This document shows positions 42,812 through 47,352 of a stretch of 64,000 nt of DNA, piece by piece (within the stretch, counting starts at the first letter, position 1; each line of letters begins with the position of its first letter). A model generated the notes under the pieces. The model was not told where the DNA came from. It did not search any database and was given only the letters and a program-made list of their open reading frames with translations. The translations under genes and the position numbers were made by a program. Source of the stretch: Sulfuricurvum kujiense DSM 16994 (lineage in GTDB: Bacteria; Campylobacterota; Campylobacteria; Campylobacterales; Sulfurimonadaceae); NCBI RefSeq assembly GCF_000183725.1, contig NC_014762.1:992001-1056000 (forward strand). The letters are read 5' to 3'.

Positions 42812-42885
42812 CCCCTTATCCTCCCACTTCAAATTATTTCCTACTATCATAGCATTTTGTACATTAAGGCCTCATCGTTTTGCTA

Positions 42886-43028
42886 ATCACATTTTTATCA
42901 CCAAAAAAGATGATTTTGTTGTGATTATAAAAATAAAATTGTGCCAAAAAAGTGATAAATGCACCAAAAAATGGGGATTATCAACCAAAAACAGTGATAA
43001 AAATTTGAGATTTAACATGTAGTGATAA
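42886..43028 (+). repeat. A-rich direct repeats and GTGATAA sites upstream of the FccB-like operon
   Basis: CCAAAAA occurs at 42901, 42944, 42964 and 42985, spaced 43, 20 and 21 bases, i.e. multiples of about 21. GTGATAA follows or lies near at 42952, 42994 and 43022, with an inverted copy TTATCAC at 42895-42901. The array fills the middle of the 328-base gap 42812-43139 before the operon, with no gene in it. It looks like a multi-site operator read on one face of the helix. The rest of the gap, toward 43139, is AT-rich with no clear further feature. Confidence 0.55.
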
Positions 43029-43139
43029 TTTCTATAAGATAAGTATTATTAATATTTAAAAAGCATTAAGGTTTGCACGGATACACTACTGCTCGATACA
43101 AAAATCTTATATCATACAAAAGACGAGGGAGAACTCAAA

Positions 43140-44552
43140 ATGAATATTTCAAGACGGGACTTATTTAAATTTGCCGGGCTTAGTGTAGCAGCGGCTGCAG
43201 TAACAGGATGCAGTACGACTGCTTTTGACCCACTACCAAAGGGATCATCACAAGGCACTTCAAGTAAAATGCTCGGTAAGCATCAAGTTGTAATTATCGG
43301 GGGCGGTTTCGGCGGCTTGACAGTTGCAAAAGAGTTGAAAAAAATCGATCCAAGTTTTGATGTTGCTATTATTGAGAAGAACGATAGTTTTATGTCATGC
43401 CCATTCTCCAACTGTAACTTGGGCGGAATCAAAGGGGTTAGCCTCAGCACGTTGACGCATGATTACTCTCAGGCGATCGAAAATAACGGGTATGGGATGT
43501 TGACTGCGGTTGTAACCGGAATTGACCGTGAGAAAAAAGTTGTTTATACCTCTAAAGGCGGCGTAGGCTACGATATTCTCGTTCTCGCACCGGGTATCGA
43601 CTATAACTATAAAGGGCAATTCCCGACATGGTCTGATGCGAAAATTGCAAAAGCAAAACGTGTAGCACCTGCTGCATTGATGCCGGGCGGTGAACACGTA
43701 GCGCTGGATCGTATGGTTAAAAATATGGAAGACGGCGATGTGGTCATTACCGTACCTGCAGGTAAATACCGTTGCCCTCCGGCTCCGTTTGAGCGTGCGA
43801 GCATGATTGCAAACTACATGAAAACAGAAGGCTTCAAAGGAAAAGTTATTATCTTGAATGAAACGGCTGAAGTTGCAAAAGGTGCGGCATTCAAAGAGAC
43901 ATGGAAAGACCTTTATGCCGGAATCGTAGATCACCAAGATAACTGTAAAATCGTAGATGTTGATTTTGATAAAAAAGAGATCACCTATGTTCAAACCGTA
44001 TTTGCCAATAAAGAGGATACGGAGGGGGTAAAAACGACTAAGACATTGAAATACGGGATTTTCAATTTTATCCCTCACAATATGTCCAGCCCGGTTATCG
44101 AAATGTCAGGAGTCGCAACTACTCCGGACGGGTTCAAAAAAGTTAAAATGGCAACCAGTCCTGAAAAACCGGTCTCTTTCCAAACCGCTACCGATGCTAA
44201 CGTATTTGCGGTCGGCGATGTTGTCGGACATGCGATTCCTCCGAGCGGACAATCGGCCATTTGGTCAGGAAAAGAGTGTGCAAAAGAGATCGCCCACAAA
44301 CTTCACGGTAAGTCGTACAGCGTTGCATCCGCACTACCGTACAAAAGTGCAAACGTCTGTTACTCAATGGTCAACGGGAATCCTGAAGAAGCAATCATGG
44401 TTAACCATGAATTCATGGTTCAAGGACCGGTTATCGGATCTAAAGGATCGGTTCCAAAAGGTGACGAAGCGAATAATAAATTTCGCTCAACCGGACTTGG
44501 AAAAGCAACTCGTGACTGGTACAAAGGGGCTATGCGCGACCTTTTCAACTAA
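43140..44552 (+). CDS. Tat-exported flavoprotein, flavocytochrome-c sulfide dehydrogenase FccB-like
   Basis: A 470-residue periplasmic FAD/NAD-fold protein. The N-terminus combines a twin-arginine signal (SRRDLFKFAG) with a lipobox-like VTGC (Cys24), so it may be a Tat lipoprotein. FAD motif VVIIGGGFGGLTVAKEL at 50-66. The conserved RCPPAPFERA holds Cys212, the first redox Cys of FccB, but the second (usually in GFCPV) is Lys333 here (GFKKVK). Extra Cys are in SCPFSNCN. It probably handles sulfide or another sulfur donor by a modified mechanism. Confidence 0.82.
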   Translation: MNISRRDLFKFAGLSVAAAAVTGCSTTAFDPLPKGSSQGTSSKMLGKHQVVIIGGGFGGLTVAKELKKIDPSFDVAIIEKNDSFMSCPFSNCNLGGIKGVSLSTLTHDYSQAIENNGYGMLTAVVTGIDREKKVVYTSKGGVGYDILVLAPGIDYNYKGQFPTWSDAKIAKAKRVAPAALMPGGEHVALDRMVKNMEDGDVVITVPAGKYRCPPAPFERASMIANYMKTEGFKGKVIILNETAEVAKGAAFKETWKDLYAGIVDHQDNCKIVDVDFDKKEITYVQTVFANKEDTEGVKTTKTLKYGIFNFIPHNMSSPVIEMSGVATTPDGFKKVKMATSPEKPVSFQTATDANVFAVGDVVGHAIPPSGQSAIWSGKECAKEIAHKLHGKSYSVASALPYKSANVCYSMVNGNPEEAIMVNHEFMVQGPVIGSKGSVPKGDEANNKFRSTGLGKATRDWYKGAMRDLFN

Positions 44553-44563
44553 GATCGAGTTTG

Positions 44564-44587
44564 TGTACTCTTCTTTTGGAGAGTACA
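44564..44587 (+). terminator. Hairpin between the FccB-like and Rieske genes
   Basis: TGTACTCT and AGAGTACA (eight perfect pairs) with an eight-base loop lie 12 bases after the flavoprotein stop and 53 bases before the next ATG. It has no T run. It may set unequal expression of the two genes rather than stop transcription. Confidence 0.5.
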
Positions 44588-44639
44588 AAGCTAATTCTGC
44601 TACACTAATCTACTCAAAATAATTCACACGGAAAATATC

Positions 44640-45365
44640 ATGGATAGAAGAAATTTTTTAAAAGTCGTTGCGGGTGCAACGGTTATTGCGGTCAGCCCGT
44701 CACTTATACGGGGAAATCTTTACGCGGCTGATGGTATGTTGTTTAGTGCCTATGAAAAAGCACAGCTGGTTGATGCGGCAGGAAAACCGATAAAAGCGTC
44801 GGCACTTCAAAAAGAGGTTACGTATATTTTTAATTATCCGTATGCTTCTACCCCTTGTATGTTAATCAATCTTCCGAAACCGACTGGCAAAGATGTTGAA
44901 TTAACCTCTGAATCCGGTGAAAAATATGTATGGAAAAGCGGTGTCGGAAAAGAACGAACCATTGTCGCATACGTTGCCATTTGTACGCATCAAATGACCC
45001 ATCCTACTCCAAATGACAGCTTTATCACGTATGTACCGACAGCTAAAAAAACAATGGCATACGAAAAAAGCGGCATTATCGTCTGCTCATCGCATCTTTC
45101 TGCCTTTGATGCCGGTGCAGGTGCTAAAGTATTAGGCGGTGCGGCTACGCAACCGCTAAATGCAGTTGTCCTTGAGCATGCGGCAGATGATACGTTATGG
45201 GCAGTCGGTATTTTAGGCTCTGATAAGTTTCAAGATTATTTCAAAAGTTTCCGTCCTGAACTTAAAGAGTTTTACGGCGGACCGGCAGAAGCAAAAAAAC
45301 TGGTTTCTATTTCTGCAAAAACGGTCAAACTCACTGAGTATTCTAAAGAAGTAATTCAATACTAA
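44640..45365 (+). CDS. Tat-exported Rieske iron-sulfur protein
   Basis: A 241-residue protein with a twin-arginine signal (MDRRNFLKVVAGATVI) and a Rieske-type 2Fe-2S domain. Ligands are C115-T-H117 and C149-S-S-H152 (VCSSHLSAFDAG). The spacing H117 to C149 is 31 residues, about twice the usual 15-17, so an insert sits between the two ligand loops. The disulfide cysteines of bc1-type Rieske proteins are absent, so it is like arsenite-oxidase-small-subunit-type Rieske proteins. It may be an electron partner of the FccB-like protein. Confidence 0.8.
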   Translation: MDRRNFLKVVAGATVIAVSPSLIRGNLYAADGMLFSAYEKAQLVDAAGKPIKASALQKEVTYIFNYPYASTPCMLINLPKPTGKDVELTSESGEKYVWKSGVGKERTIVAYVAICTHQMTHPTPNDSFITYVPTAKKTMAYEKSGIIVCSSHLSAFDAGAGAKVLGGAATQPLNAVVLEHAADDTLWAVGILGSDKFQDYFKSFRPELKEFYGGPAEAKKLVSISAKTVKLTEYSKEVIQY

Positions 45366-45378
45366 TAAAAGGGTCATT

Positions 45379-45789
45379 ATGAAAAAAATATTAATAGCAT
45401 TAGTGACGGCAACGACTTTATTCGGAGCGCCGAATGGTTCAGGAACAGATCACCGAACGATGTTGATGAAAGATATGCGTACGATGTTGGATGCTATGGA
45501 AGAGATCCAGCGGGGAGGTTTGTACAGTTCAACGGATGATATGAAAGCCGGGATAAAAAAACTTCAATCCACGCTTAAAACACTTGAAAGTGAAGAGATT
45601 AAATTTATTCTCCCGAAGGATCAAGTGTATGCCTATAAGTTTGCCCAAAAAACAGCACATATGCTGCGCCTCTATTCAGACGACATGATCGTTTTTATTG
45701 AAGCGGGCCGGATGGATGAGGCGTTGGATGATTATTCGCAACTGCTAAAACAATGCACTTCTTGCCATATTCGAATTAGAAATTGGTGA
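45379..45789 (+). CDS. Periplasmic c'-like monohaem cytochrome
   Basis: A 136-residue protein: signal peptide (about 1-17), helical body, and a single haem motif CTSCH at 126-130 with HIRIRNW at the end. It matches the paralogue at 30576-30986 in length, LPKD position and haem position. It is 13 bases behind the Rieske gene, so the flavoprotein, Rieske and cytochrome genes form one operon. It is probably the soluble electron acceptor or a ligand sensor. Confidence 0.8.
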   Translation: MKKILIALVTATTLFGAPNGSGTDHRTMLMKDMRTMLDAMEEIQRGGLYSSTDDMKAGIKKLQSTLKTLESEEIKFILPKDQVYAYKFAQKTAHMLRLYSDDMIVFIEAGRMDEALDDYSQLLKQCTSCHIRIRNW

Positions 45790-45805
45790 TAAAGCTTCAT
45801 TAATG

Positions 45806-45840
45806 AATCTCCGAAAAAATCGGAGATTTCAAATTTTTTT
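45806..45840 (+). terminator. Strong terminator after the FccB-Rieske-cytochrome operon
   Basis: AATCTCCGA, loop AAAAA, TCGGAGATT (nine perfect pairs), then TCAAATTTTTTT. It closes the operon. Confidence 0.85.
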
Positions 45841-46099
45841 CTTCTTTATAAAAAACAAAATAGTCTAGAAAAATAAATTTAAATAATATTATAAATTCAA
45901 ATTTATAAATCTCTTAAAACTCCATGTGCAGCGTAATTTTTATAGATATCACATTTTTATCAATCGAAATTGTAAAATTACAATTATATTAAAAAAATTA
46001 ATATAAATAAAGAAAAAATAAAGAAATGCCTGTTATCATTCTTGCACGATTCGCAATAAGAAAATCTTATTCGTGAATTTTTTTTCAGAGGGAGAACGA
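45841..46099 (+). other. AT-rich leader region before the porin gene
   Basis: About 260 bases of very AT-rich DNA with no open reading frame of note, between the terminator and the porin start. It contains the 15-mer at 45948-45962 that is also present upstream of the FccB-like operon, and GAGGGAG (46088-46094), the ribosome binding site of the porin. It is probably the porin promoter and 5' leader. Confidence 0.5.
45948..45962 (+). promoter_or_regulatory. 15-base motif shared with the FccB-like operon control region
   Basis: ATCACATTTTTATCA occurs here and, identical, at 42886-42900. Both lie in gene-free control regions, about 150 and 240 bases before the downstream ATG. A common regulator is possible; in AT-rich DNA a chance match cannot be ruled out. 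Confidence 0.4.
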
Positions 46100-47352
46100 A
46101 TGAAGTTAGGAAAACTTAGTTTGTAGCTGTAATGGCTCTTGGAACAAGTGCATTTGCTATTGATAATGCAAAAGTAAATGGTGGAATTAAATTTATCTAT
46201 CAAACTGCCGATTGGGAATTGACAAGCGCTGAAAAAGCAAGTGGATTATATGAAACCGGTTTGTTCAAGCAAGGTAATATTAATAATCCTATAAGCGGAG
46301 CTTCCTATGGCGGAGCTGCATCAGGCGGTCTTTCTTTTTCTGTCGGCGGAACAGCTGATCTTACTCAAGGTGTCAGTGCCGGTGCTGAAGTGCAAGGATT
46401 CACAACACTCGGTTTAGAAAACAACCTAGTAATCGGTTCTATGCAAGGAAGCAGACTGGATGTGGATGATGCTGCCTCTATGGCACAATTGTGGATGGCA
46501 ACCACTTTGGGCAAAACAACGGTAAAAGCAGGACGTATGGAACTTGATACACCGCTTGCATTTACAGAAAAATGGAATTTGATTAAAAATACATTTGATG
46601 CGGCCGTTGTATTGAATAATGATCTTCCGAATACAACTTTGGTTGCAGCTTGGGTTGGAAAACATAATGGTGACACTACAGGTGCAGGTTATGTAGCTCA
46701 TCTAAATACATATACAACTTTCGGTGTAAGCGGTGCTTATGCATTCGGTGCGATTAACAAGTCTATTCCAAATACAACCGCACAAGCATGGTATTACAAC
46801 GTTTGTGACGTTGCAGATGCCTATTGGTTGCAAGCAGACGCAAAATTGGTAGGTATGATAGATGTCGGCGCTCAATATGCAAATTTGGATCCTAAAGCTT
46901 CTGGTCCTAAAGATTCTAGCATTTGGGCCGTTAAGGCTTCTGCTGATGTAGCAGGATTCAATGTTTACGCAGCATATTCAGATGCTGACGAAGACGGTAC
47001 TGCAAGTTTTGCTAACGTTTCAACAAACGATAAAACTAAAATTTATACGGGCGATGGTTCAATCTACATGGATGGAATTGTAACTCGACCGGGTACAGAG
47101 GCATTTAAAATCGGTGCATCAACAAAAATGGTTCCGGGTGTAAGTTTAGCTGCAAGTTATTGTGATGCAAGCGATGTTTCAGTGCAAAATCATGACATCT
47201 CAGCATGGGATGTATCTGCGAGCGGAAAAATCGGTGCACTTGGTTTGACAGCGATTTATACGCAAGTTAACAATGATACGGATGGAACATCACAAGTGTA
47301 TGCAGGTCGTGACAACGATACTCTCCGCCTTATTGCTACATTGGCTTTCTAA
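46100..47352 (+). pseudogene. Major outer-membrane porin, frameshifted in the signal peptide
   Basis: ATG 46100 with a good ribosome binding site begins MKLGKLSL and then meets TAG at 46124. The next frame carries on as VAVMALGTSAFAIDNAKVNG and runs to TAA at 47350-47352. One missing G after TTG (TTGGTAGCT expected, TTGTAGCT seen) explains this. The rest is a complete beta-barrel of about 410 residues with alternating strands, ending in Phe (LRLIATLAF), like Campylobacterota porins. As written, no signal peptide is made; an internal start at ATG 46132 would give a partial one. Confidence 0.85.

Follow-up and report, generated by a model that had tools for sequence, protein, structure and literature searches.

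Campylobacterota are major sulfur oxidizers at vents and in caves and aquifers. One member, Sulfuricurvum kujiense, lacks soxCD and can use hydrogen as well as sulfide, S0 and thiosulfate (PMC4288042). We analyzed a window of 64,000 nucleotides from this bacterium, which includes an operon for an FccB-like flavoprotein, a Rieske protein and a small cytochrome.

The flavoprotein shares its FccB family, FAD cysteine, disulfide pair, active-site glutamate and central FCSD (flavocytochrome c sulfide dehydrogenase) domain with FccAB of Allochromatium vinosum (1fcd), Thermochromatium tepidum (3vrd) and Thioalkalivibrio (5n1t). In these enzymes Cys42 (A. vinosum numbering) is the covalent FAD site and Cys161 and Cys337 form the disulfide (PMC3504083). 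Unlike FccAB, the S. kujiense operon has no adjacent FccA gene; a Rieske protein and a predicted single-heme protein of the cytochrome c′ fold are found instead, and a lipid anchor on the flavoprotein is likely.

PMC3504083 also describes a cluster in the Sulfurihydrogenibium-like LSSB in which a Rieske gene stands between two FccB genes (DhsU1 and DhsU2); a flavocytochrome-like gene precedes these and soxXYZAB follows. Produced recombinantly, DhsU1 functions as a monomeric sulfide dehydrogenase with cytochrome c as acceptor and a Km for sulfide of about 16.5 µM (PMC3504083). On the basis of this literature, the LSSB cluster resembles the present operon type in placing an FccB homolog by Rieske, cytochrome-like and sox genes, and DhsU1 is Tat-exported and has the same cysteines. 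It differs in belonging to Aquificae and in having two FccBs around the Rieske gene and the heme gene upstream, and the Rieske proteins are alike by description only. A first-pass annotation of the window had proposed the three S. kujiense genes as a possible new periplasmic unit and looked to a characterized three-gene homolog as the argument against this. The unit is indeed genuine and conserved, but the LSSB cluster largely supplies such a homolog, with one FccB characterized. What we describe is a little-studied form of a known enzyme with a probable variant electron outlet, partly foreshadowed in 2012 by the Sulfurihydrogenibium-like cluster.

SoxF of Paracoccus pantotrophus and Chlorobaculum tepidum is likewise an FccB-type sulfide dehydrogenase, monomeric and associated with SoxYZ. 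It is encoded in the sox cluster with no known Rieske partner, unlike the operon examined here, which lies about 600 kb from soxXYZAB. The Rieske protein recalls two further systems. It is similar to Sulfolobales Rieske proteins of the SoxF/SoxL2 type (1jm1; TIGR03171), which provide its top NCBIfam match and also have a long ligand gap, whereas the stabilizing cysteines of 1jm1 are missing from the window's protein. These Sulfolobales proteins belong to complexes analogous to cytochrome bc1. Arsenite oxidase offers the closest fold, AioB (TM by target 0.75–0.85), a small Tat-exported Rieske protein feeding a c-type cytochrome, as its S. kujiense counterpart may do. The latter differs from AioB in its ligand gap (31 residues versus 15), in a C-terminal extension of about 45 residues and in having a flavoprotein rather than AioA as partner. 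The recipient of electrons from AioB is cytochrome c552 (PMC10071563).

For Campylobacterota, published studies list an Fcc homolog for Sulfuricurvum PC08-66, the organism of our locus L047 (PMC4288042), call the Fcc of a Sulfurimonas non-canonical (PMC10066037), and group campylobacterial Fccs with those of Aquificales and thermophilic archaea (PMC12403661). Within the portions consulted, neither these three sources nor PMC3504083 discuss a Rieske protein as acceptor, and the wiring of Fcc in Campylobacterota is not described. Our searches found no literature joining a Rieske protein with a flavocytochrome or fccB in Sulfuricurvum or Sulfurimonas, and no biochemical or expression data on this operon type in Campylobacterota. 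From the comparisons below, we consider that the operon probably encodes an FCSD-type periplasmic sulfide dehydrogenase in which the Rieske protein replaces the FccA heme subunit.

Organization of the operon

The genome, 2.82 Mb in five contigs, includes a 2,574,824-bp contig (C4) that contains the window, with the operon at C4:1035 kb. Its three open reading frames are on one strand (Table 1), with 87 nt between the FccB and Rieske genes and 13 nt between the Rieske and cytochrome genes. Both the strong terminator and the operator array of the first-pass annotation were recovered. The array consists of six copies of GTGATWA, a motif picked after looking at the sequence, which occur in both orientations within 145 bp (42884–43028) versus 15 copies elsewhere in the window. 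A longer pattern, TWTTGTGATWA, is not enriched in the window; only the GTGATWA cluster 5′ of FccB stands out. In some relatives the corresponding region retains isolated TATCAC sites or a pair resembling TATCACATTTxTATCAC. Upstream of FccB, the window's sequence is closer to that of L042 and L051, which carry the other FccB class (see below), than to L035 and L036.

Table 1. Features of the S. kujiense operon and its surroundings (window positions)
Feature	Position	Strand	Evidence
Class I c-type cytochrome, 118 aa	40859–41215	−	
Upstream regulatory region, GTGATWA heptamers followed by a stretch kept in relatives	42855–43135	+	motif count, repeats
FccB-type flavoprotein, 470 aa; Tat motif and lipobox (Cys24), Cys87, Cys212/Cys407, Glu218	43140–44552	+	profile, alignment, invariance
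Intercistronic hairpin (about 44560–44592), then leader conserved in Sulfuricurvum	44553–44639	+	MFE −20 kcal/mol, z −3.6
Tat-exported Rieske [2Fe-2S] protein, 241 aa; ligands Cys115, His117, Cys149, His152	44640–45365	+	invariant ligands, AF2, folds
Single-heme four-helix cytochrome, 136 aa; CTSCH at 126–130, invariant Met33	45379–45789	+	AF2, superposition, invariance
Intrinsic terminator, 10-bp stem followed by T-rich tract	45805–45829	+	stem and T run; z −2.7 for 45785–45860
OprD-like porin, region of signal peptide	46101–46160		

A hairpin is present between the FccB and Rieske genes in all eight Sulfuricurvum relatives examined, with stems that differ in sequence. Such hairpins would fit unequal expression of FccB and the Rieske protein. 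No RNA families were found within the 64-kb window. Just downstream of the operon, the signal peptide of an OprD-like porin seems frameshifted, such that the frame of the first ATG reads MKLGKLSL and then a stop. In relatives (L036, L039 and L048) the frame continues into the signal peptide. Either a short stretch has been deleted in the window or the sequence is in error here.

The flavoprotein

FccB matches the FCSD central domain (PF21706) with 91.1 bits against a cut-off of 27. The C-terminal FCSD flavin-binding domain (PF09242) is matched at residues 404–469 with 22.8 bits against a cut-off of 26, and the phmmer alignment of FccB to 5n1t spans this region. Among solved structures, the best E values are those of 5n1t (7e-50), 3vrd (9e-40) and 1fcd (7e-38); the nearest solved sulfide:quinone reductases (SQRs) reach 6e-9, versus 1e-38 to 1e-50 for FCSD. 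Assignment as an SQR was rejected, with a score of 63.7 bits against the family cut-off of 525. Two distant FccB relatives, perhaps SQRs, are encoded elsewhere in the genome (C4:2043686 and C4:2018949).

Alignment to 1fcd equates C87 with Cys42, C212 with Cys161 and C407 with Cys337; the last pair of the printed alignment is query residue 411 with 341. The first-pass annotation had correctly recognized Cys212 (in RCPPAPFER), but a hand-alignment error led it to place Lys333 at the site of the disulfide partner and to conclude that the usual Cys–Cys redox center is missing. The second cysteine, whose presence elsewhere in the pocket it had named as an argument against its proposal, is Cys407, in the motif NVCYS. 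Cys212, Cys407 and Glu218 are invariant in 18 FccB sequences that represent both classes of the protein. The FAD cysteine, Cys87, is retained in most class A rows and is Gly in some of class B. As judged by alignment, the redox center of the window's protein is normal, with all of the catalytic cysteines of flavocytochrome c sulfide dehydrogenase in place.

Twin-arginine motifs, already noted in the first pass, are present in both FccB (SRRDLFK) and the Rieske protein (MDRRNFLK). A feature overlooked there is the lipobox VTGC, ending in Cys24. Because such a lipobox follows the Tat motif in most class A proteins (20 of 23 rows), as it does here, FccB is probably a Tat lipoprotein anchored at this cysteine.

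The Rieske protein

The Rieske protein carries the ligand motif CTH-x31-CSSH and, as had been claimed for it, no extra pair of stabilizing cysteines. Each of the ligands is invariant across 34 sequences, and the 31-residue spacing is found in 42 of 48 units. While the first-pass annotation gave the length of this gap correctly, it is misleading to view the gap as a peculiarity, since Sulfolobus SoxF (1jm1) has 27 residues by the same counting and long gaps thus occur elsewhere. The AF2 model (pLDDT 87) has arsenite oxidase AioB as its nearest fold, followed by SoxF. With the best-matching NCBIfam model, TIGR03171 (soxL2), the protein scores 94.2 bits against a cut-off of 582.1, and with arsenite_ox_S it scores 46.8 bits against 95.65. 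We rejected identity with SoxL2 on the first score, and identity with AioB on the second and because no AioA gene adjoins. Since both scores are far below the respective cut-offs, the protein represents an unnamed branch of the group that holds soxL2 and the arsenite oxidase small subunit. Only two matches to it were found on plasmids, both at 30%, one of which is annotated as an arsenite-oxidase-type small subunit.

It is very improbable that the operon serves a non-sulfur donor such as arsenite, to which the AioB-like fold of the Rieske protein might point, or an organic thiol. An AioA-like molybdenum subunit is absent beside the genes, FccB has the full sulfide dehydrogenase active site, and SoxYZ is encoded within the operons of relatives.

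The cytochrome

The third protein has a single C-terminal heme motif, CTSCH, and as first described is not FccA. It scores 16.1 bits with the cytochrome c′ family (PF01322), under the cut-off of 26.5, as do its relatives, and a sequence search found no solved relatives. The AF2 model (pLDDT 84) is a four-helix bundle. Structural matches include cytochromes c′ and b562 with weak Foldseek E values, above 0.09, and helical bundles match easily. When residues 1–106 of the b562 chain are superposed on residues 27–134 of the model, Met33 aligns with Met7 and His130 falls near His102, the heme ligands of b562. Both Met33 and His130 are invariant among homologs. Because the invariant Met33 falls on the b562 Met7 position, we favor a six-coordinate electron carrier, and the model suggests His130/Met33 ligation of the c556/b562 type.

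Proteins of the c′ fold often bind NO or CO. The Rieske protein and cytochrome might be electron sinks or NO- or redox-sensing side proteins of an FccB that keeps periplasmic sulfide low, with no role in energy conservation. The operon's own repeat-rich upstream region would suit such detoxification or sensing, as would the two distant FccB relatives, which could handle bulk sulfide oxidation. We nonetheless regard this reading as improbable, given that the methionine at the b562 ligand position points to a six-coordinate carrier and that the strict FccB–Rieske linkage over many families (see below) suggests a main electron path.

Linkage of the genes in Campylobacterales

The Rieske protein occurs in 37 of 299 Campylobacterales genomes, a count that leaves out two weak matches (E about 1e-3), and FCSD occurs in 86. 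The co-occurrence suggested for checking in the first pass is borne out for the FccB and Rieske genes. FccB adjoins the Rieske gene in all 37 genomes, in 36 as detected by the FCSD model and in one as a contig-end fragment (L067). For the 36 of 37, the hypergeometric p is 1.6e-21, a value that ignores relatedness. A homolog of the c′-like cytochrome is adjacent in most genomes. The heme protein is not obligatory, because several of the loci L067–L079 have FccB and Rieske genes with no cytochrome gene nearby. FccB genes that lack a Rieske neighbor are solitary or lie behind a small heme gene as in FccAB (L095–L097). The FCSD marker family also matches in Sulfolobus acidocaldarius. Many sulfur bacteria share the gene set, and the combination of FccB with this Rieske protein can serve as an annotation marker for the variant.

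Exchange of FccB classes and association with SoxYZ

FccBs linked to the Rieske protein fall into class A (22 units, including the window) and class B (25 units), which are about 33–38% identical to each other, and there is one divergent row. SoxY and SoxZ, both above Pfam cut-offs, are encoded in the operon in 16 of the 25 class B units versus none of the 22 class A units, with some units clipped by short contigs or loci. This association was also overlooked in the first-pass annotation.

The Rieske tree shows four or more switches of FccB class, and the AU test rejects monophyly of class B (p 2.2e-9). At one site in Sulfuricurvum, between pyrC-like and chorismate-mutase-like genes on one side and a radical-SAM gene on the other, L036 and L039 carry class A whereas L042 and L045 carry class B, and the Rieske proteins at this site are at least 80% identical to that of the window. 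On the contig of L085 (3523–8000) both classes lie in tandem, accompanied by separate Rieske and cytochrome genes and, for one of them, by SoxYZ as well. Because the FccB class changes repeatedly beside the same Rieske lineage, the Rieske protein, with or without the heme protein, behaves like a constant electron outlet that serves interchangeable dehydrogenases, a relationship new to this analysis. Repeated change of class is as expected if the Rieske/heme part is a common acceptor, and the exchange of classes with and without SoxYZ offers a direct test of how one outlet would be shared by sulfide and carrier-bound sulfur.

These observations bear on the possibility that FccB acts in the manner of SoxF, with SoxYZ-bound sulfur as its main partner (by activation, or by oxidation or release of sulfane sulfur), free sulfide as a secondary one, and the Rieske and heme proteins taking the electrons. 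Sulfuricurvum species lacking a local SoxYZ would then use that of the distant soxXYZAB cluster, which in this genome is at C4:433.7–437.6 kb and holds its only SoxYZ. The frequent presence of SoxY and SoxZ in class B operons fits this proposal, as do the absence of soxCD from S. kujiense (PMC4288042) and the stimulation of thiosulfate oxidation in vitro by C. tepidum SoxF, known from the title of reference 45 in PMC3504083. However, the window's FccB is of class A, never found with SoxYZ in the units examined, and DhsU1 from the analogous LSSB cluster is active with sulfide yet inactive with sulfur, sulfite and thiosulfate (PMC3504083). For the window, we consider a SoxF-like role unlikely. 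Somewhat less likely still is the broader proposal that the Rieske–heme pair is a general periplasmic outlet for varied FccB-type dehydrogenases and, with the SoxYZ-linked class, forms a SoxCD-independent sulfane dehydrogenase acting on SoxYZ-bound sulfur.

Elsewhere, L107 (4325–5551) and L108 (4307–5542) each encode a molybdoenzyme resembling sulfite oxidase, about 410 aa long, and the two are similar in sequence. These lie at distant sites of one genome, with no SoxD or SoxYZ adjoining.

A possible route for electrons from sulfide

For the sulfide dehydrogenase reading that we favor, FccB would be exported folded by the Tat system with FAD on Cys87, probably lipid-anchored at Cys24, and would oxidize sulfide through the Cys212–Cys407 disulfide to sulfane sulfur or S0. 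Electrons would leave the FAD singly to the AioB/SoxF-like [2Fe-2S] protein, and from there pass to the co-encoded c′-fold cytochrome with its predicted six-coordinate heme, then into the pool of soluble c-type cytochromes and to the terminal reductases. In relatives with a class B FccB and SoxYZ, the same outlet would probably serve an FccB acting in concert with sulfur bound to SoxYZ. The first-pass suggestion of a possible sulfur-oxidizing system points to the right area. If FccB feeds the Rieske protein and not FccA, sulfide-derived electrons follow a distinct path in Campylobacterota. The Rieske protein may not be the immediate acceptor, because monomeric FCSDs that lack FccA reduce cytochrome c directly.

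Upstream of the operon, the gene for a class I c-type cytochrome (Table 1) keeps its place in Sulfuricurvum relatives, and its product is a possible downstream electron acceptor.
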